Origin: Robertkochia flava | GTDB taxonomy: Bacteria; Bacteroidota; Bacteroidia; Flavobacteriales; Flavobacteriaceae | Assembly (NCBI RefSeq): GCF_020166515.1 | Contig: NZ_JAINZT010000006.1 | Span: 248,001 to 312,000 of the forward strand | Length of the DNA: 64,000 nucleotides | Direction: 5' to 3' | Part shown: in pieces, positions 5,443 to 43,809 of the stretch | Layout: every line of letters starts with the position of its first letter | Position numbering within the stretch: the first letter of the stretch is position 1 | The notes under the pieces: model-generated | What the model was told of the DNA's origin: nothing | The model's database searches: none | Seen by the model: the letters and a program-made list of their open reading frames with translations, nothing else | Program-made: the position numbers and the translations under genes

Positions 5443-6306
5443 ATGAGACAATTAAAGATCGTAAAGCAGGTTACGAACCGCGAATCCAAATCCCTGGACA
5501 AATACCTACAAGACATCAGTAAGATCGATATGATCACTGCAGATGAGGAGGTGGAACTGGCAAGGCGGATTAAACAGGGAGACCAGGCCGCTCTCGAGAA
5601 ACTCACCAAGGCTAATTTAAGATTTGTGGTATCGGTGGCCAAGCAGTACCAAAACCAGGGACTAAAGCTTTCCGATCTTATCAATGAAGGAAACATCGGG
5701 TTGGTAAAGGCCGCAAAGCGCTTCGATGAAACACGTGGATTCAAGTTTATATCCTATGCAGTATGGTGGATTCGGCAATCCATATTACAGGCACTGGCCG
5801 AGCAATCGCGAATTGTACGGTTACCGCTGAACAAAATAGGCTCGATCAACAAAATCAATAAAGCCTTCTCTTTCCTGGAGCAAAAACATGAACGCCCGCC
5901 ATCGGCAGAGGAGATCGCCCGCGAGCTGGACATGACCGTGAAAGACGTCAAGCAATCCTTGAAGAATGCAGGCCGCCATGTTTCAATGGATGCCCCGCTA
6001 AAGGAAGGAGAATCCTCCAACCTTTATGATGTGGTAAGATCCGCAGAATCACCCAATCCAGACAAAAAACTATTACATGACTCCCTGCATACAGAGATCA
6101 CCAGAGCTCTTGACACACTGTCGACCCGGGAAGCTGATGTGATCAAGCTCAATTATGGCATTGGCCTGGAGCAGCCAATGACCCTGGAAGAGATAGGAGA
6201 TATTTTCGATCTTACCAGAGAACGCGTAAGGCAGATACGGGAAAAAGGAATCCGGCGATTACGGCACAATTCAAGAAGTAAGATCCTTAAAATGTATTTG
6301 GGCTGA
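5443..6306 (+). CDS. rpoD: RpoD/SigA-family sigma-70 factor (primary-type, region 1.1 absent)
   Basis: A 287-residue sigma factor of the compact Bacteroidota type. Region 1.2 ([13 protein letters not shown]), region 2 with [15 protein letters not shown] and the [10 protein letters not shown] recognition/melting helix, region 3, and region 4 ([29 protein letters not shown]) are all present. It directs core RNA polymerase to TTTG/TAnnTTTG promoters. The acidic region 1.1 of proteobacterial RpoD is missing, as expected for the phylum. Compared with the flavobacterial housekeeping RpoD as I remember it, regions 1.2 and 4 carry many substitutions (for example GIGLEQPM and [13 protein letters not shown]), so it may be a paralogue used under particular conditions. 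No typical promoter is obvious upstream. Confidence 0.85.
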
Positions 6307-36077: not shown

Positions 36078-37625
36078 ATGAATGAAATAAAGATACTTTG
36101 GGTAGATGATGAGATCGATCTTTTAAAACCACATATCCTTTTCCTGGAGAAAAAGAACTACAGCGTAGACACCTGTCAAAGCGGGGTGGATGCGGTGGAA
36201 AAAGTGAGATCCGAGAGTTACGACATTGTATTTCTCGACGAAAACATGCCCGGTATCACTGGTTTAGAGACGCTGAGTGAGATCAAGGCAATCCGACCCG
36301 CCCTGCCGGTGGTCATGATCACTAAGAGCGAAGAAGAATACATTATGGAGGAGGCCATTGGGAGTAAGATCGCAGATTACCTGATCAAACCGGTGAACCC
36401 TAACCAGATCCTGTTAAGCCTGAAAAAGACCCTCGATCACTCCCGCCTTGTTTCTGAAAAGACCACCTCCAATTATCAGCAGGAATTCCGGAAGATTGCC
36501 ATGGATATGGTCATGATTAACTCTTACCAGGAGTGGATAGCTTTGTACAAAAAGCTGCTCTACTGGGAGATTGAACTTGAAAACATTGAAGATGCAGGAA
36601 TGATCGAGATCCTGGAGTCTCAGAAGGTAGAAGCCAACAGCATGTTCGGCAAGTTCATCGAAAAGAACTACCATCGCTGGTTTACCGAAGATGATCATCC
36701 GGTCATGTCGCATACCATGTTTCGGGAATGGGTAGTACCTGAATTGCAAACAGGACCTCCTACCCTTTTAGTGGTCATCGACAATCTGAGGTACGACCAA
36801 TGGAAGAGTATCGAAGGCGCTGTAAACACCCATTATAAAAAGAAAAAGGAAAACGCCTATTTCAGCATTCTCCCTACCGCCACCCAATATGCCAGAAATG
36901 CGATTTTCAGCGGATTAATGCCTTCTGAAATGGAACGGCTTTATCCGGAGTTCTGGAAGAATGATACCGATGAAGGAGGAAAGAACCTGTATGAAAAAGA
37001 CTTCCTGGAACAGCAGATCAGAAGAATGGGCTTAAAACTGAACTGGGAATACCATAAGATCTCCAGTTTGAAATCAGGAAAACAACTCGCTCAAAACTTT
37101 CCGAGTCAAAAAAAGAACGATCTCACGGTACTCGTATATAATTTCGTGGACATGCTTTCTCACTCTAAAACAGAAATGGAAGTGGTAAAAGAGCTGGCCT
37201 CTAACGACAAGGCGTACAGGTCGCTAACCCAAAGCTGGTTTCGCAACTCGCCTTTGCTGGATATCATTCAGCAGGCACAGCGCTTAGGCTTCAAATTAAT
37301 CATTACCACAGACCACGGAACCATCAACGCTAAAAATCCTTCAAAGGTAATCGGCGACAGGGATACGAGTCTTAATCTCCGTTATAAAACAGGGAGGAGC
37401 CTCACCTTTGAAGAAAAAGAAGTTTACGCGGTCAAAGACCCCAAAAGCATCTTTCTTCCAACGATCAACATGAGCAGCTCATTTATCTTTGCCAAAGGGG
37501 ATCTTTTCTTCGCATATCCCAACAATTACAATCACTATGTGAGCTACTACAAAAACACCTATCAACACGGAGGGATTTCTCTTGAAGAAATGATCATCCC
37601 CTTTGCGGTGTTAACCCCGAGGTAA
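36078..37625 (+). CDS. porX: PorX, response regulator with PglZ domain (type IX secretion regulator)
   Basis: A 515-residue protein. Residues 1-125 are a receiver domain with acidic pair Asp10/Asp11, phospho-acceptor Asp54 in FLDENMPG, and Lys in YLIKPVNP. A helical linker leads to a PglZ domain of the alkaline phosphatase superfamily (about 205-515): VVIDNLRYDQW, LPTATQYARNAIFSG with candidate nucleophile Thr near 267-269, and IITTDHGT. PorX controls T9SS gene expression and secretion through PorY and SigP in Porphyromonas, and its PglZ domain was described as a zinc phosphodiesterase acting on oligonucleotides. Its presence implies a T9SS elsewhere in the genome. Confidence 0.94.
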   Translation: MNEIKILWVDDEIDLLKPHILFLEKKNYSVDTCQSGVDAVEKVRSESYDIVFLDENMPGITGLETLSEIKAIRPALPVVMITKSEEEYIMEEAIGSKIADYLIKPVNPNQILLSLKKTLDHSRLVSEKTTSNYQQEFRKIAMDMVMINSYQEWIALYKKLLYWEIELENIEDAGMIEILESQKVEANSMFGKFIEKNYHRWFTEDDHPVMSHTMFREWVVPELQTGPPTLLVVIDNLRYDQWKSIEGAVNTHYKKKKENAYFSILPTATQYARNAIFSGLMPSEMERLYPEFWKNDTDEGGKNLYEKDFLEQQIRRMGLKLNWEYHKISSLKSGKQLAQNFPSQKKNDLTVLVYNFVDMLSHSKTEMEVVKELASNDKAYRSLTQSWFRNSPLLDIIQQAQRLGFKLIITTDHGTINAKNPSKVIGDRDTSLNLRYKTGRSLTFEEKEVYAVKDPKSIFLPTINMSSSFIFAKGDLFFAYPNNYNHYVSYYKNTYQHGGISLEEMIIPFAVLTPR

Positions 37626-38034: not shown

Positions 38035-38403
38035 ATGGCAAAAGCAATAGACAGAATCTTCACCATTATCAAATCTCTCGGCATGAGTGCCAGGCAGTTC
38101 GACATGTCGATAGGTGCATCCAATGGATACACCCTTCGTATGAAAAAGAACAACGCCTCTGTTGGGAGTGATATTTTGGAGAGGATCGTAGAGAAATATC
38201 CTTTTGTAAACATCAACTGGATAATCACAGGCCGTGGGAATATGTTTGGCATTGATGCCGAGGAAAAGCCAGCAAGAGAACTCACATTTGAAGAGGTGGA
38301 GGCCATCATAGATGCAAAAATTAAAGCTAACGAAAAAGAAGACCTGGAGGCTTTGATGGATAAGATCAAAGCTGAGATCAACAAAACTGAAAACAACAAC
38401 TAA
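38035..38403 (+). CDS. CI-repressor-like helix-turn-helix protein
   Basis: A 122-residue protein. The N-terminal 75 residues fit the phage CI-type HTH found in many Bacteroidota: TIIKSLGMSARQFDMSIGASNGYTLRMKKNN as the DNA-binding helices, then SDILERIVEKYPFVNINWIITGRGNMF, a phrase shared by these regulators. The C-terminal part (about 80-122) is a charged coiled coil (EEVEAIIDAKIKANEKEDLEALMDKIKAEI) and probably dimerises the protein. The peptidase domain of full CI repressors is absent. It has its own promoter and terminator. It probably represses itself or neighbouring genes; no operator was identified. Confidence 0.75.
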   Translation: MAKAIDRIFTIIKSLGMSARQFDMSIGASNGYTLRMKKNNASVGSDILERIVEKYPFVNINWIITGRGNMFGIDAEEKPARELTFEEVEAIIDAKIKANEKEDLEALMDKIKAEINKTENNN

Positions 38404-38406
38404 TAG

Positions 38407-38433
38407 AAACCGGGGTCCATCCCCGGTTTTTTT
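38407..38433 (+). terminator. Intrinsic terminator after the HTH gene
   Basis: Arms AAACCGGGG (38407-38415) and CCCCGGTTT (38421-38429) with loop TCCAT and a following T run to 38433. It also separates the convergent membrane protein gene. Confidence 0.9.
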
Positions 38434-39688
38434 ATGACTGTTCCTTACTCAATTCTTCCAGCCGCTTCTTTATGCCTTTCAGCCTTTCCAGATATTCGGA
38501 TGGAGCGTACTTTTTATGGTCTTTGATCAAGGCGGTTAATTCCTTTTTTAGGTTTTTCTTTTTCTCGCTTTGCGAATGATATGATAAATATTTTATAGTC
38601 TTATTTATTTTAATCTCCATAATGTTGTAAAACTCTAAAAGCAACACATAGTTCCTGAACCTTCGGGTCAACACAACCATGACAACAGAAATCAAGAGAA
38701 TAATTGGGACCAAATTGAAAAATTTATAGCCATCAACTTCAGAGGTACTACTCAAAATCTCAAGCAATTGAAATAAACCTACCGAAAATGGGATTAAAAG
38801 AAAATATTTCCACCAATGTCGGTTAGAAAAGAACCATAATGATACTGGTATTATCAATATAATTTTTGCGCAAACCACCCAGAAGAATGTTCGTAAATCA
38901 GGAAACCCAAACAATGGCATATTCATGCCAAGAAAATTTAATTCCCTAACCCCAGGAGCTACAAAATCATATAAACTCAACAACAAAGGGGTTAATACTA
39001 ATATTAGAGCCAGTAAGACTTCTAGGATCAATTTAGGAATGAAGGAATATGTTTGACGTGCAAAATCTTCACTTTTCAAATAATCGCTAGTTTCATTTAA
39101 GTAGTTATACTCTTTGTAAATAGTATTTAATTGATCTCTATTTAAATTTTCCTGATCAAGAACACCCTTTACCTTTGTAATTCTAGATTTATTTTCTTTC
39201 GATCTAGGCAGAAGATAAAGGTTTTCAGAATCTATATTAAATTTAGCACCAATATTAAACCGATAATATTTAAGATAGTTATTAATCATAACGATTAACA
39301 CCAGGTAAACACCAACTAGTATTAGCTCAAAAGAATCGAAAGGCAAAATTCCAAATTCATCCTGTAAATTTGAGATCAGCTGAAAACTTAAAAATGCGAT
39401 CGGAACTAAAATAGAAAATCTCCACCAATGTTTTTCCGTAATAAACCAAATGGAAAAGAATATGATTGGAGAAATCTTAACGAGGGTATGATAAGCTAAC
39501 GCTTGAACTGTAGGGGTTATTTTAGGAGTAATACTAAAGAAAACTGTTTCCCATTCTTTAACATCTGGAACTAAATGATGAAAATAAACTAAAAATGAAG
39601 AAGATATTATTAAAAATATTAGTGTGAAATCTACCAAAAATAAACTTGTTGAGCTTTTTTTGATACTTTTAGATGTGGAGACTTGCAT
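38432..39688 (-). CDS. Eight-helix membrane protein with duplicated KHWW unit, unknown function
   Basis: A 418-residue protein from the ATG at 39688 (a TTG at 39730 is the only longer start). It is two copies of a four-helix unit. In each, helix 2 ends WF(x)2(K/R)HWW or WFFSNRHWW, helix 3 reads L(V/I)P(I/F)xxxxFQL, and helix 4 follows an acidic loop (DSFEL; DGYKFF). The copies are joined by a soluble linker (about 150-215) and followed by a basic coiled-coil tail of about 75 residues. The single-unit protein at 42050-42571 is a clear homologue. I know no named family. Base composition is visibly more AT-rich than in porX or tsaE, suggesting acquisition by transfer. Confidence 0.7.
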   Translation of the reverse strand: MQVSTSKSIKKSSTSLFLVDFTLIFLIISSSFLVYFHHLVPDVKEWETVFFSITPKITPTVQALAYHTLVKISPIIFFSIWFITEKHWWRFSILVPIAFLSFQLISNLQDEFGILPFDSFELILVGVYLVLIVMINNYLKYYRFNIGAKFNIDSENLYLLPRSKENKSRITKVKGVLDQENLNRDQLNTIYKEYNYLNETSDYLKSEDFARQTYSFIPKLILEVLLALILVLTPLLLSLYDFVAPGVRELNFLGMNMPLFGFPDLRTFFWVVCAKIILIIPVSLWFFSNRHWWKYFLLIPFSVGLFQLLEILSSTSEVDGYKFFNLVPIILLISVVMVVLTRRFRNYVLLLEFYNIMEIKINKTIKYLSYHSQSEKKKNLKKELTALIKDHKKYAPSEYLERLKGIKKRLEELSKEQS

Positions 39689-39774
39689 ATGGGTTTGTTC
39701 CTTTATATTGGTAAAAATAAATTTTTCCAAACATTATTGCCTTACAATTTAAAAAATTGCTAACACTATCCCCT

Positions 39775-40182
39775 ATGAGTAAATTTTCCTATAGCATAGA
39801 CCAGCTTGATGAAGCCTGCCAGTTTATTCTAGATCATGCGAAATCCAGGGTCATATTATTCAAAGGTGCTATGGGTGCCGGAAAAACAACGCTGATCAAA
39901 TCGATGGTGAAACTCCTGGGCAGCTCAGACAATGTAACCTCTCCTACTTTTTCCCTGGTCAATGAATACCACACCCTAGCCGGGCCCGTTTATCATTTTG
40001 ATCTTTACCGTCTCGAAGATGAAGAGGAAGCTTCTGAAATAGGACTGGAAGAATACCTGTACAGCGGGGCCTGGTGTTTTGTGGAATGGCCGGAAAAAGC
40101 ACAAGGCCTCTTCCCTGAAAAAACAGCCCTGGTCGATATTATCACACATTTAAACGGAATAAGGACCTTGGAAATTTCTTAA
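39775..40182 (+). CDS. tsaE: tRNA threonylcarbamoyladenosine biosynthesis ATPase TsaE
   Basis: A 135-residue P-loop ATPase from the ATG at 39775 (a TTG at 39757 is upstream but unneeded). Walker A GAMGAGKTTLIKSM near residue 34, then the TsaE motifs SPTFSLVNEY, YHFDLYRLEDEEEASEIGLEEYL and CFVEWPEKA. It works with TsaB and TsaD in the transfer of threonylcarbamoyl to A37 of ANN-decoding tRNAs (t6A). I expect it next to porX and ald in relatives; here it is flanked by accessory genes on both sides. Confidence 0.95.
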   Translation: MSKFSYSIDQLDEACQFILDHAKSRVILFKGAMGAGKTTLIKSMVKLLGSSDNVTSPTFSLVNEYHTLAGPVYHFDLYRLEDEEEASEIGLEEYLYSGAWCFVEWPEKAQGLFPEKTALVDIITHLNGIRTLEIS

Positions 40183-40695
40183 AAGCATAGTTTTATCTCC
40201 TACATTTTATCGCCTCAAATCGTTGTATATTAAAAAATTATCTAATATACGATAAAGGTTTTTATTATCCATACCCGATTTTTTGATAGGTTTGACTACG
40301 TTAAATAAAGTAAAAGTAGCACCATGTCTATCATAATATTCTTACAAATTTAATTAGTATACCCCCCAAATGTCCCCCATAAAAACATTTGACGGTTACC
40401 TGTGCCTGAAACCGAAAAAACCAATGATCCCGGATAGCCGTTTATAACAAAACCAGAAACCAAAAGATAACAGCCTAACCAGATCTTAAAATGAAAGCCA
40501 CCAAGAGCTACTACAATCTCCTGTTTCCTGATCCAGGGAAGCTTTCCAAAAAATCAAACTTTGCACCATGGCGGAATTCAGGTCGAATCTCCACTGCTCA
40601 CTAGGTGCATTATCCTGTTTTCCTGGAAGGCACTGCCTAAATATCTTAAATCAGTAGATTATTCAACTATCAGAACCTTATAAAACACCATTATC
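40183..40695. other. 513-bp stretch without a convincing gene
   Basis: It holds two short inverted repeats: GTATATTA/TAATATAC (40225-40250) and CAAATGT/ACATTTG (40367-40391), the latter around a CCCCC block. A 37-codon ORF at 40491-40604 (MKATKSYYNLL...) has no ribosome site and looks like a gene remnant or chance. No tRNA, known riboswitch or strong promoter is visible. The stretch may carry the promoter or scar of the lipoprotein array that follows. Confidence 0.5.
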
Positions 40696-40857
40696 ATGAA
40701 AACAACCGGAAAAATTTTATCATTTGTTTTTGCCATCGGCATCCTGAGCATTAGTGTCGTATCCTGCTCTAAATCATCTGTTGCTGACGAAGATTCTCTT
40801 TACGAACAACACGAAGGAGTTGACAGATATAAAGTTCAGGTGCCTGAAAACGGTTAA
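40696..40857 (+). CDS. Small lipoprotein, array copy 1
   Basis: A 53-residue lipoprotein: signal peptide MKTTGKILSFVFAIGILSIS, lipobox VVSC (Cys24), mature peptide of 30 residues (CSKSSVADED ... EGVDRYKVQVPENG). The signal peptide differs from the other five copies, while the mature part is the same as copies 4 and 5, which suggests recombination or gene conversion at the lipobox. First gene of the array and the one nearest to any promoter. Confidence 0.78.
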   Translation: MKTTGKILSFVFAIGILSISVVSCSKSSVADEDSLYEQHEGVDRYKVQVPENG

Positions 40858-40903
40858 TCTTTAATAACAAATTTTATCAAACTAACATCTTAAACAATCA
40901 CAC

Positions 40904-41062
40904 ATGAAACCTTCAAAACTAATAACCTGCACCTTCGCTATTGCCCTGCTGGGACTAACCACCGTATCCTGTTCTAAATCATCTGTTGCTGACGAAGATT
41001 CTCTTTACGAACAACCCGAAGGAGTTGACAGATATAAAGTTCAGGTGCCTGAAAACGGTTAA
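40904..41062 (+). CDS. Small lipoprotein, array copy 2
   Basis: A 52-residue lipoprotein: MKPSKLITCTFAIALLGLT then lipobox TVSC (Cys23) and the shared 30-residue mature peptide. The one change is EQPEG for EQHEG. Function unknown; it would be anchored by lipids at the envelope. The first acidic cluster (DED) starts at mature position 8, so the classical surface-export signal right after the Cys is not obvious. Confidence 0.78.
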   Translation: MKPSKLITCTFAIALLGLTTVSCSKSSVADEDSLYEQPEGVDRYKVQVPENG

Positions 41063-41109
41063 TCCTTAATAACAAATTTCTATCAAACTAACATCTTAAA
41101 CAATCACAC

Positions 41110-41268
41110 ATGAAACCTTCAAAACTAATAACCTGCACCTTCGCTATTGCCCTGCTGGGGCTAACCACCGTATCCTGCTCTAAATCTGCTGTTGCAGACG
41201 AAGATTCCCTTTACGAACAACACGAAGGAGTTGACAGATATAAAGTTCAGGTGCCTGAAAACGGTTAA
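41110..41268 (+). CDS. Small lipoprotein, array copy 3
   Basis: Same signal peptide as copy 2, lipobox TVSC, mature start CSKSAVADED with Ala for Ser at mature position 5, and otherwise the shared sequence ending KVQVPENG. This Ala is also found in copy 6. Confidence 0.78.
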   Translation: MKPSKLITCTFAIALLGLTTVSCSKSAVADEDSLYEQHEGVDRYKVQVPENG

Positions 41269-41315
41269 TCTTTAATAACAAATTTCTATCAAACTAACAT
41301 CTTAAACAATCACAC

Positions 41316-41474
41316 ATGAAACCTTCAAAACTAATAACCTGCACCTTCGCTATTGCCCTACTGGGACTAACCACCGTATCCTGTTCTAAATCATCTGTTG
41401 CTGACGAAGATTCTCTTTACGAACAACACGAAGGAGTTGACAGATATAAAGTTCAGGTGCCTGAAAACGGTTAA
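41316..41474 (+). CDS. Small lipoprotein, array copy 4
   Basis: Identical in protein sequence to copy 2 except for the consensus His (EQHEG). Lipobox TVSC. It represents the consensus of the array. Confidence 0.78.
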   Translation: MKPSKLITCTFAIALLGLTTVSCSKSSVADEDSLYEQHEGVDRYKVQVPENG

Positions 41475-41521
41475 TCTTTAATAACAAATTTTTATCAAAC
41501 TAACATCTTAAACGATCACAC

Positions 41522-41680
41522 ATGAAACCTTCAAAACTAATAACCTGCACCTTCACTATTGTCCTGCTGGGACTAACCACCGTATCCTGTTCTAAATCAT
41601 CTGTTGCTGACGAAGATTCTCTTTACGAACAACACGAAGGAGTTGACAGATATAAAGTTCAGGTGCCTGAAAACGGTTAA
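41522..41680 (+). CDS. Small lipoprotein, array copy 5
   Basis: Signal peptide variant MKPSKLITCTFTIVLLGLT (two changes inside the hydrophobic core), lipobox TVSC, mature peptide identical to copies 1 and 4. Changes are confined to the part that is cleaved off. Confidence 0.78.
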   Translation: MKPSKLITCTFTIVLLGLTTVSCSKSSVADEDSLYEQHEGVDRYKVQVPENG

Positions 41681-41727
41681 TCTTTAATAACAAATTTCAT
41701 CAAATTACCTTCCAAAAATAATCACAT

Positions 41728-41886
41728 ATGAAACTTTCAAAACTGATTACCTTCACCTTCGCTATCGCCCTGCTGGGACTGACCTCCGTATCCTGCTCTA
41801 AATCTGCTGTTGCTGATGAAGATGCCCTCTATGAACAACACGAAGGAGTTGACAGATATAAAGTTCAGGTACCTGAAAACGGTTAA
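41728..41886 (+). CDS. Small lipoprotein, array copy 6 (most diverged)
   Basis: Signal peptide MKLSKLITFTFAIALLGLTS, lipobox SVSC, mature CSKSAVADEDALYEQ then the shared ending. Relative to copy 4 the mature coding part has several synonymous changes (GAC/GAT, CTT/CTC, TAC/TAT, GTG/GTA) but only two Ser-to-Ala replacements, which suggests purifying selection on the peptide. It is followed by 163 bp with a -7 element for the next gene. Confidence 0.78.
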   Translation: MKLSKLITFTFAIALLGLTSVSCSKSAVADEDALYEQHEGVDRYKVQVPENG

Positions 41887-42010: not shown

Positions 42011-42018
42011 TAATTTTG
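42011..42018 (+). promoter_or_regulatory. Candidate -7 element for the single KHWW membrane gene
   Basis: TAATTTTG matches TAnnTTTG exactly; transcription would start near 42024, 26 bp before the ATG. No TTTG at the right -33 distance. Confidence 0.5.
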
Positions 42019-42049: not shown

Positions 42050-42571
42050 ATGATACCTACTAAATTCAAGAAACGCAAAGAGTCTTTCAACTTGGTCACT
42101 GGCTCTATAGTTGCAATTTTAATTGCGGTTTCACCTTATATATTTTATTTATACGAAAGTTTCCCTCGTGAAGAAACTTGGAAAACTTGGTTTTTTTATT
42201 TCTCAAGTAAAAGAGATCTTTTTACAACTGCTTGGCTAATTTTCAGCAAGCTAGTACCACTATATTTAATTACTATTTGGTTTCTAACTTGTAAACACTG
42301 GTGGTATCATGCTATACTTATTCCTATATCAATGTATGTTTTCCAACTAATGAGTTTATTCAATGAAGATATTCGTTTTATTGATGAATTTGAAATATAT
42401 TATATCATTCCCATTATGATGATCGTAATTCCTCTTGTCTATCTTATCCGATTAAAAATTTTCGATAAGGTTGTACATGGAATTGATCTAAAACAAATTG
42501 ATAAGGAATTGGAAAAATACGATGCTCTTGACCGGGAATTGGAGCGGGAGTCCAGATTCTACCAATCTTAA
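42050..42571 (+). CDS. Four-helix membrane protein with KHWW motif, unknown function
   Basis: A 173-residue protein with four hydrophobic segments (about residues 17-36, 60-80, 84-103, 117-138). Helix 2 ends TIWFLTCKHWW, helix 3 reads ILIPISMYVFQLMSLF, the loop before helix 4 is DEFEIYY, and a charged tail (about 145-173) follows. It matches each half of the duplicated protein at 38432-39688 in order and spacing. No named family is recognised. It is strongly AT-rich against the ald gene that follows 38 bp later. It sits directly after the lipoprotein array. Confidence 0.7.
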   Translation: MIPTKFKKRKESFNLVTGSIVAILIAVSPYIFYLYESFPREETWKTWFFYFSSKRDLFTTAWLIFSKLVPLYLITIWFLTCKHWWYHAILIPISMYVFQLMSLFNEDIRFIDEFEIYYIIPIMMIVIPLVYLIRLKIFDKVVHGIDLKQIDKELEKYDALDRELERESRFYQS

Positions 42572-42609: not shown

Positions 42610-43809
42610 ATGTCCTATCCAAATTCGCCCTTCAGCAAACAGGAACTCATTCCTCAGGAAGAAACGCTGGAGATCCTCAAGAAAAAAGGAGAGTTATTCA
42701 TTGGAATTCCCAAAGAAAGCTCTTACCAGGAACGGCGTGTATGCCTCACTCCGGATGCTGTAAATGCCTTAACAGCCCATGGACATCGGGTAATTATAGA
42801 ATCCAAAGCCGGAGAAGGGGCTAATTACAGTGATCGGGAATATAGTGAGGCTGGGGCCGAGATCACTTCCGACACCCAGAAAGTATACTCCTGCCCCATT
42901 GTCCTCAAAGTAGAACCCCCTTCCCTTAAAGAACTGGAATTGATCAACCCACAAACGATCATTATTTCAGCCCTTCAAATAAAAACACAAAGCAAAAAGT
43001 ACTTTGAAACCCTGGCCAAAAAACGCATCACGGCCATGGCTTTCGAATTCATCAAGGATGAGGTTGGCAACTACCCTGCCGTTCGTGCCCTAAGTGAAAT
43101 AGCCGGTACTGCTTCGGTGCTTATAGCCGCCGAGCTCATGACCAATATGAATCACGGTAACGGACTCATGTTTGGTAATATCACCGGGGTACCTCCGGTA
43201 AATGTAGTGATCCTTGGCGCCGGCACCGTTGGGGAATTCGCTGCCAGGGCCGCACTTGGACTAGGAGCCGATGTTAAGATCTTCGACAACTCCATCACGC
43301 GCCTAAGAAGCCTCCAAAACAACCTGAACAGGATCCTGTACACCTCTACCCTTCAGCCCAAGAATCTGCTGAAAGCACTAAAAAGATGCGATGTGCTTAT
43401 CGGTGCAGTAAGAGGAATTGAAAGAGCTCCTGTAGTGGTAACAGAAACCATGGTCGAAAACATGAAGAACGGAGCCGTACTTATAGACGTAAGTATAGAC
43501 ATGGGAGGCTGTATCGAAACTTCGGAGATTACCACCCACGATAACCCTACCTTTGTCAAGCACGGCGTCACCCATTATTGTGTACCCAACATCCCTTCGA
43601 GGTATGCCCGCTCTGCCTCCGTGTCTATCAGCAATATATTTACGCCTTATCTTCTGAAAATTGGCGAAGATGGCGGACTTGAACAATCCTTAAGATTTGA
43701 CAAGGGTTTAAGAAATGGTTTGTATTTTTACCACGGAATTTTAACCAGCAAGGCTGTTGCCGACTGGTTTGATCTTTCCTATCGCGATATAAACCTATTG
43801 ATCTTTTAA
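42610..43809 (+). CDS. ald: Alanine dehydrogenase
   Basis: A 399-residue enzyme of the alanine dehydrogenase/transhydrogenase family: IGIPKESSYQERRVCLTPDAVNAL near the N-terminus (after an extra ~28-residue lead), NAD site VVILGAGTVGEFAARAALGLGADV near residues 198-220, and DVSIDMGGCIETS. It interconverts alanine with pyruvate and ammonia using NAD. The N-terminal extension is, as I recall, usual in Bacteroidota. It is followed within 7 bp by the DUF4258 gene. Confidence 0.93.
   Translation: MSYPNSPFSKQELIPQEETLEILKKKGELFIGIPKESSYQERRVCLTPDAVNALTAHGHRVIIESKAGEGANYSDREYSEAGAEITSDTQKVYSCPIVLKVEPPSLKELELINPQTIIISALQIKTQSKKYFETLAKKRITAMAFEFIKDEVGNYPAVRALSEIAGTASVLIAAELMTNMNHGNGLMFGNITGVPPVNVVILGAGTVGEFAARAALGLGADVKIFDNSITRLRSLQNNLNRILYTSTLQPKNLLKALKRCDVLIGAVRGIERAPVVVTETMVENMKNGAVLIDVSIDMGGCIETSEITTHDNPTFVKHGVTHYCVPNIPSRYARSASVSISNIFTPYLLKIGEDGGLEQSLRFDKGLRNGLYFYHGILTSKAVADWFDLSYRDINLLIF

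Follow-up and report, generated by a model that had tools for sequence, protein, structure and literature searches.

Tandem genes for a small lipoprotein in Robertkochia flava belong to a conserved gene pair with a membrane protein and are amplified repeatedly in Flavobacteriaceae

Results

Six near-identical lipoprotein genes in tandem

This study concerns a tandem array of tiny lipoprotein genes in Robertkochia flava (Flavobacteriaceae) and the membrane protein gene that follows it, here called TM1. Both lie in a stretch of 64,000 nucleotides (RefSeq assembly GCF_020166515.1, contig NZ_JAINZT010000006.1, positions 248,001 to 312,000), which was analysed as a whole and is referred to as the window. 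In the open reading frame (ORF) list of the window, positions 40696-41886 of the forward strand hold six lipoprotein genes, one of 53 codons and five of 52, with start-to-start steps of 208, 206, 206, 206 and 206 bp (Table 1). Tandem Repeats Finder recovered the same array with a period of 206, 5.5 copies, 94% matches and a score of 1976. Viewed by eye, every copy starts with basic residues followed by a hydrophobic segment and a V-S-C lipobox, whose cysteine is the first residue of the 30-residue mature part. All six copies carry the signal peptide, lipobox and cysteine by which a bacterial lipoprotein is recognized, and the lipobox pattern was also matched by 45 of 45 lipidated relatives. 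No seventh copy was found in the 13-contig genome, where the next-best matches had E values of only 0.22 and 0.80. Copies 2-6 differ from one another by 5 to 56 positions over 206 nt and none are identical, which indicates separate genes rather than an assembly artefact that repeats a single copy.

The window microproteins are coding and under purifying selection. Copy 6 is separated from copies 2-5 by 10-12 synonymous and 4-7 replacement changes, corresponding to synonymous divergence (dS) of 0.32-0.41 and replacement divergence (dN) of 0.035-0.062. The first copy is different in kind. Aligned with copy 2, its signal-peptide DNA shows 31 mismatches and 3 gaps, compared to only 2 of 93 differing bases in the mature part. 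The corresponding figures are 25 of 69 signal-peptide mismatches and 11 of 93 mature-part differences in R. marina, and 21 of 69 and 5 of 93 in R. sediminum. Because copy 1 has its own signal peptide and matches the others from the signal-peptide end onward, the array has the appearance that unequal crossing-over between two older copies, within their common mature part, would leave. Were this its origin, the odd signal peptide of copy 1 would need no special selection.

These results agree with an earlier note on this DNA, made from the sequence without database searches. It had described six near-identical genes of 52-53 residues at one 208-bp and four 206-bp steps, a signal peptide and VSC lipobox in every copy, and a first copy with another signal peptide but the same mature part. 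It had also read the synonymous changes of copy 6 as a sign of selection on the peptide, and the comparison of dN and dS that it suggested bears this out.

Table 1. Features of the array and of the surrounding locus (positions within the window).
Feature	Position	Strand	Remarks
Microprotein copy 1	40696..40857	+	53 aa; divergent signal peptide, mature part as in other copies
Microprotein copy 2	40904..41062	+	52 aa
Microprotein copy 3	41110..41268	+	52 aa
Microprotein copy 4	41316..41474	+	52 aa
Microprotein copy 5	41522..41680	+	52 aa
Microprotein copy 6	41728..41886	+	52 aa; most diverged among copies 2-6, chiefly synonymous
TM1	42050..42571	+	173-aa membrane protein; conserved partner gene
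Promoter box TAGGTTTG	40287..40294	+	fits TAnnTTTG; 409 nt before copy 1
Leader, promoter box to copy 1	40295..40695	+	no significant similarity to the repeat unit
Candidate own promoter box of TM1 TAATTTTG	42011..42018	+	pattern match only
Second candidate promoter box of TM1 TATTTTTG	41970	+	pattern match only
porX	36078..37625	+	type IX secretion system response regulator; conserved neighbour
122-aa protein	38035-38403	+	helix-turn-helix-like by eye, no Pfam match; adjoins porX in many, not all, relatives
TM2x	38432..39730	-	432-aa membrane protein, two TM1-like domains; between the helix-turn-helix-like gene and tsaE
tsaE	39757..40182	+	conserved upstream neighbour; alternative start 39775
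ald	42610..43809	+	alanine dehydrogenase-like, conserved downstream neighbour; 303.9 bits, under the NCBIfam cut-off of 391.85

The microprotein is paired with TM1 across the family

Judged by gene order, a gene conserved in the series porX-tsaE-microprotein-TM1-ald has been amplified locally to give the array. The usual order in relatives is porX, tsaE, microprotein, TM1, ald, DUF4258, proline dehydrogenase and aroB. In 38 of the 39 loci compared, the microprotein gene was directly upstream of TM1; one Zhouia genome counts twice among them (L084 and L092), and the exception, L048, is another kind of place. Microprotein and TM1 persist together without ald in L093 and L094, and without an adjoining tsaE in L103.

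TM1 was present in 178 of the 249 Flavobacteriaceae genomes sampled, and in a class-wide sample of 198 genomes it was found in the window genome only. The matches listed for the 178 genomes gave 146 TM1 places, one per genome, with the second and third places in G206, G174 and G031 excluded. A microprotein recognized by profile was located directly upstream (same strand, gap of -120 to 450 nt) at 132 of these 146 places, counting microprotein matches that were near TM1 places or among the strongest. At 13 of the remaining 14, a small, more diverged ORF whose N-terminus is hydrophobic could be picked out by eye upstream of TM1; a similarly loose small-ORF criterion was satisfied at 18 of 381 random points. 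The last, L203 (G246), is the only listed place with the microprotein downstream, and there it carries three tail repeats KIEKARxTxQMIA. The profile of the soluble-type microprotein described below matched 115 of 178 TM1-positive genomes compared to 2 of 71 TM1-negative ones. Nearly every TM1 place examined thus has the pair.

A small secreted peptide adjoining a small multi-helix membrane protein might also be a toxic peptide with TM1 as its immunity protein. Toxin-immunity pairs usually show patchy spread, however, and this pair has a fixed chromosomal position and a wide presence in the family, so that we consider such a role very improbable.

The structure model of TM1 comprises four long helices, with a short hairpin lying between helices 1 and 2, and a further helix at the C-terminus (predicted local distance difference test score 82.3, predicted template modelling score 0.51). 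Averaged over 47 proteins, the N-terminus has a charge of +4.5 and the loop between helices 2 and 3 of +1.0, compared to -2.1 for the helix 1-2 loop, -4.0 for the helix 3-4 loop and -0.3 for the C-terminal part. By the positive-inside rule, loops 1-2 and 3-4 should therefore be periplasmic. Database matches were scarce. Window TM1 had no Pfam match up to E 1, none in PHROGs, and a single NCBIfam row at E 0.83. The 47 relatives gave scattered Pfam rows to four families, with at most three members each (best 0.00088), and one member matched the NCBIfam model of prolipoprotein diacylglyceryl transferase at 7.6e-5. The best E value of the TM1 profile against PDB sequences was 0.39.

Related proteins were observed elsewhere. 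The TM1 profile matched TM2x twice (G000:C10:287287-287673 at 3.1e-22 and 286552-287040 at 3.7e-20), and genes related to TM2x stand three in a row in L085, L095 and L111. In L114, L117 and L126, further small lipoproteins are followed by a 153-173-aa membrane protein and then by a protein of about 100 aa. In a three-protein search, the membrane proteins of L126 and L117 were weakly TM1-like (1.4e-7 and 7.8e-6) and that of L114 scored 0.026; given the first two values, the pair of microprotein and TM1 may have paralogues.

Amplification at the level of genes, gene pairs and protein tails

The count of copies in relatives, which the earlier note had proposed, gave 7 in R. marina and 4 in R. sediminum compared to 6 in the window, and one each in R. 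solimangrovi and Robertkochia sp. Other gene arrays have 6 copies in Zhouia genome G025, at least 2 in Z. amylolytica and 3 in Galbibacter pacificus. Runs of N, either gaps or masking, interrupt the arrays of R. sediminum (L039, 6530-6711) and Z. amylolytica (L084, about 5600-5990), and the copy numbers of these two are therefore lower bounds. At a second level, the microprotein and TM1 are multiplied together as a unit, which is present in three copies in L090 and L091 and in two in L181. At a third level, the conserved tail is repeated within a single protein. This was found in 12 proteins with 2 to 6 units: two units in L098, L105, L155 and L156, three in L107, L108 (the middle one diverged), L119, L128 and L203, four in L046 and L150, and six in L149, all of which encode the same 11 residues.

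The repeat units evolve as peptides. Pooled over the 12 proteins, adjacent units differ at a proportion of 0.659 of synonymous sites (pS) and 0.094 of replacement sites (pN), with pN per protein ranging from 0.03 (L149 and L203) to 0.44 (L108). Seven repeat proteins, taken without L105, L108 and L155, gave a pN of 0.069; we use the 12-protein value. On a tree of 85 TM1 proteins, in which L203 counts as single despite its repeats, there were at least 4 changes at gene level, 3 at pair level and 6 within proteins, or 11 for amplification of any kind. Amplification at the three levels is scattered over this tree. That a conserved tail has been multiplied repeatedly across species suggests that the amount of microprotein matters.

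Short repeats recombine often, and copy number could drift with no function attached. Units and spacers are indeed near-identical within arrays, consistent with recent unequal crossing-over. Nonetheless, copy 6 and the within-protein repeats have retained the peptide while synonymous sites changed, and the arrays free of N show no irregular steps, so that no broken copy is concealed between intact ones. A neutral by-product is for these reasons a decidedly weak candidate.

Predicted transcription signals around the microprotein gene

The box ahead of copy 1 fits TAnnTTTG, the consensus of the flavobacterial -7 promoter element given in PMC9723704. By this consensus, 66 of 80 loci have a box located 20-75 nt ahead of the microprotein, compared to 4 of 80 in an interval further upstream and to a mean of 5.3 (maximum 14) in shuffled sequence. 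The three Robertkochia array genomes were excluded from this count because their box is 331-417 nt upstream. The resulting leader is about 400 nt long in the window, 331 nt in R. marina and 417 nt in R. sediminum. It had no significant similarity to the repeat unit, and beyond the first 40 nt or so the three Robertkochia leaders have short matches only. An inverted pair ACTAC...GTAGT is visible by eye just 3' of the promoter box in the window.

At the other end, 83 loci were scanned, a set without L203 and without L084, for which no candidate was obtained. A terminator-like hairpin occurred within 220 nt after the microprotein stop in 65 of the 83, whereas shuffled sequence gave 1-5 and a stretch further on gave 6. 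For 25 of the 65, the hairpin is inside the TM1 reading frame (L087-L089, L115, L154, L162-L169, L171-L179, L181, L202 and L204), and in 28 of the 83 loci the TM1 profile match starts before the microprotein stop. The hairpins of L087-L089, L101 and L115 were seen to be built from codons of the conserved loop after helix 1.

An own promoter box combined with a hairpin in most loci suggests a short transcript that yields more microprotein than TM1, and an excess of microprotein over TM1 is likely in most species. The hairpin test revealed no terminator in the window, R. marina, R. sediminum, one Zhouia and G. pacificus. Copy number may thus have taken over the role of the terminator in 5 of 6 array genomes, although kinship among these genomes confounds the comparison.

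The same features could be read as attenuation, in which translation of a leader peptide controls read-through into TM1 and the peptide itself is secondary. The hairpins, 25 of them within the TM1 frame, and the TM1 profile matches that start before the microprotein stop speak for such a mechanism. But a leader peptide needs no secretion signal, conserved tail, gene array or internal repeat, the low pN relative to pS of the repeats points to the peptide, and the window is without such a terminator. Attenuation therefore seems improbable to us.

Head, tail and lipidation of the microprotein

What is conserved in the microprotein paired with TM1 is a short tail motif, and the lipobox varies by lineage. 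In the second TM1 clade (20 loci, L162-L181) the microprotein has 45-48 residues, and the lipobox cysteine is missing in 17 of the 20 loci and present in 3. The 17 proteins without it keep a hydrophobic N-terminus and, mostly, the conserved tail; by eye, most of them resemble substrates of signal peptidase I. The tail, approximately IDKxKIKVPxxG, is the only portion in which the mature parts of the two types, lipidated and soluble, can be aligned, with a hhalign probability of 91.9 compared to a maximum of 3.0 in 60 column-shuffled alignments. As a regular expression, the tail was matched by 37 of 45 lipidated and 19 of 21 soluble proteins (56 of 66 in total), compared to a shuffled mean of 19.7 and maximum of 45. 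Over the 66 proteins, the last 14 residues have a mean charge of +1.5 and the preceding 18 of -3.2.

Known families contribute little. The window microproteins matched no Pfam, NCBIfam or PHROG family above cut-off, and copy 2 had no Pfam match up to E 1. Among the 45 lipidated rows, Pfam matches were limited to two with ETRAMP (best 0.005) and one with LPAM_1 (0.0089), and the 21 soluble-type rows had none.

The head of the lipidated type has a distribution of its own. Its pattern, C..SVADEDxLYE, is common to 11 other small lipoproteins with a hhalign probability of 95.8, compared to at most 6.1 in controls. These proteins (L110, L112, L113, L118, L120, L121, L122, L123, L124, L127 and L048; 11 of the 21 inspected) have about 50 aa and the head C..SVADxDxLYETQATEGDDG, and their genes are near those of 621-697-aa and 202-229-aa proteins, several also near that of a protein of about 250 aa. 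In the two loci subjected to Pfam (L113 and L124) the large protein contains TPR; HATPase_c was above cut-off in L113 and just under it in L124 (25.3 vs 26.4 bits). It would appear that the tail accompanies TM1, and that the head accompanies lipidation except in L179-L181.

These relatives raise the possibility of a multi-copy peptide signal, in which a released or exposed tail would serve as ligand and TM1 would either receive it or take part in its processing. The lipidated-head proteins beside TPR histidine kinases would form a second branch. The tail repeats do look like multi-copy precursors, such as the six units of L149, their units are conserved one by one, and the shared head occurs near the genes of the large and the 202-229-aa proteins. 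NprX, a pheromone family of NCBIfam, was weakly matched by 5 of 45 rows (best E 0.0011), probably through similarity of the signal peptide. Against a signal, a conserved processing site between units is not evident by eye, and TM1 has no known signalling domain in Pfam or NCBIfam. Moreover, the soluble-type mature part compared with the kinase-linked lipoproteins gave a probability of 0.0, and Pfam found no response-regulator domain in the 221-aa protein of L124. We regard this explanation as unlikely, albeit one of the two nearest rivals to the reading that we favour below.

Location of the mature protein is suggested by the residues after the cysteine. Lipoproteins of Bacteroidota are exported to the surface by a signal of acidic residues within positions +2 to +6, as described in PMC5080379. 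By this definition, none of the 45 lipidated relatives has two or more D/E at these positions; their acidic residues cluster at +8 to +10. A periplasm-facing lipoprotein is therefore more likely.

A periplasmic face would equally suit a bulk structural lipoprotein of the envelope resembling Lpp, the other near rival, for which the neighbourhood of TM1 is historical and extra copies simply raise the amount. The own promoter and terminator of most loci, the amplification at gene level and the lack of the export signal in relatives all fit this view, and the synteny of porX, tsaE and ald could hold neighbours together for other reasons. However, the microprotein stays with TM1 at the loci without ald or an adjoining tsaE, the two genes co-duplicate in L090, L091 and L181, and the soluble versions are unanchored. 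An envelope lipoprotein is on balance unlikely, if a shade less so than a peptide signal.

With respect to the remaining proposals of the earlier note, gene dosage is likely to matter, as it had suggested, in view of selection on the copies and repeated amplification in relatives. Its statement that no family was known has given way to syntenic relatives beside TM1 throughout Flavobacteriaceae, and a surface peptide is not favoured given the positions of the acidic residues. It had further held that loss of the lipobox in homologues would argue for non-coding sequence, which does not hold for the 17 second-clade proteins. As a whole, its interpretation is supported for coding, selection and probable dosage, and needs correction regarding the family, the surface location and the lipobox test.

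Discussion

The reading that we tentatively favour, at somewhat less than an even chance, is that the array encodes a periplasmic micropeptide whose tail mediates its joint action with TM1, and that an excess of it, or several copies of the tail, are required. The microprotein would reside in the periplasm, lipid-anchored in the clade of the window and soluble in others. Its lysine-bearing tail might dock on the acidic periplasmic loops of TM1, which is possible from the charges of both, and the docked tail would then set the activity or stability of TM1. Coding, pairing with TM1 and repeated amplification are shown by the data presented; the binding and the effect on TM1 we infer. In most species, an excess over TM1 would be ensured by a promoter of its own and a terminator before or within TM1; elsewhere, additional gene copies or tandem tails would serve, and the six copies of the window would multiply the dose of tails.

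Several observations weigh against this proposal. An interaction with TM1 is suggested by gene pairing and charge, the location and phenotype of the microprotein are presumed, and the searches made gave TM1 neither a described function nor a clear match of fold. Its C-terminal part averages -0.3, so that the topology is only partly supported by charge, and the -3.2 of the 18 residues before the tail means that the peptide in its entirety cannot be called basic. The tail motif is loosely defined, with L100 and L116 among the members without its VP part, and the middle repeat of L108 has diverged to a pN of 0.44. Multiplication of microprotein and TM1 together, as in L090, L091 and L181, speaks against a need for excess, and where array genomes have no terminator the argument for excess is left with copy number alone. 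Finally, support for the TM1 tree is weak, with 33 well-supported branches among its 82 inner ones and a bootstrap that had not settled, and changes on it may be losses.

A broader scheme would treat the tail as the active unit of a previously undescribed peptide system common to Flavobacteriaceae. Gene arrays, or precursors with as many as six near-identical units, would supply this tail, and TM1 would sense it at the inner membrane. TPR histidine kinases would be served by another branch with the same lipidated head and a different tail, and exchangeable heads (anchors) and tails (ligands) would then constitute a modular periplasmic signalling code. We find this scheme doubtful.

TM1 occurs in 178 of 249 sampled genomes with a microprotein beside all 146 listed places, and we found no family entry or described function for either protein. 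Repeated multiplication of the tail, with most units kept by selection, points to an interaction that depends on dose or valency and marks residues of interest. Tiny secreted proteins and repeat arrays are easily overlooked, as illustrated by the two array loci that read N inside the array. A literature search, supplementary files aside, returned no description of this locus.

Among known proteins, those of the PG1828 family (NCBIfam NF050142) are likewise tiny lipoproteins of Bacteroidota that resemble the microprotein in the signal peptide and at the beginning of the mature part, and 20 of 45 relatives matched the model at E <= 0.01 (best 1.2e-5). Window copy 1, however, reached 18.6 bits where the cut-off is 50, in a match confined to residues 10-34 (signal peptide and first mature residues), and copies 2 and 4 were unmatched at the thresholds used. 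Braun lipoprotein (Lpp) of E. coli is also a small periplasm-facing lipoprotein, and abundance may be supposed for the window microprotein; yet the latter differs in sequence and has no peptidoglycan anchor visible by eye. Lipoprotein genes in tandem are known from the Staphylococcus lpl clusters and from entericidin EcnAB, but window copy 2 had no Pfam match, and the microprotein has a paired membrane protein and tail repeats within the protein. MgrB, a microprotein that acts on the single membrane partner PhoQ, is comparable in the way the window microprotein might work, except that TM1 is without a kinase domain in Pfam and NCBIfam and that binding to TM1 is presumed. A microprotein beside its membrane partner is a known kind of arrangement. 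What distinguishes the present system is amplification at three levels with selection on the units.

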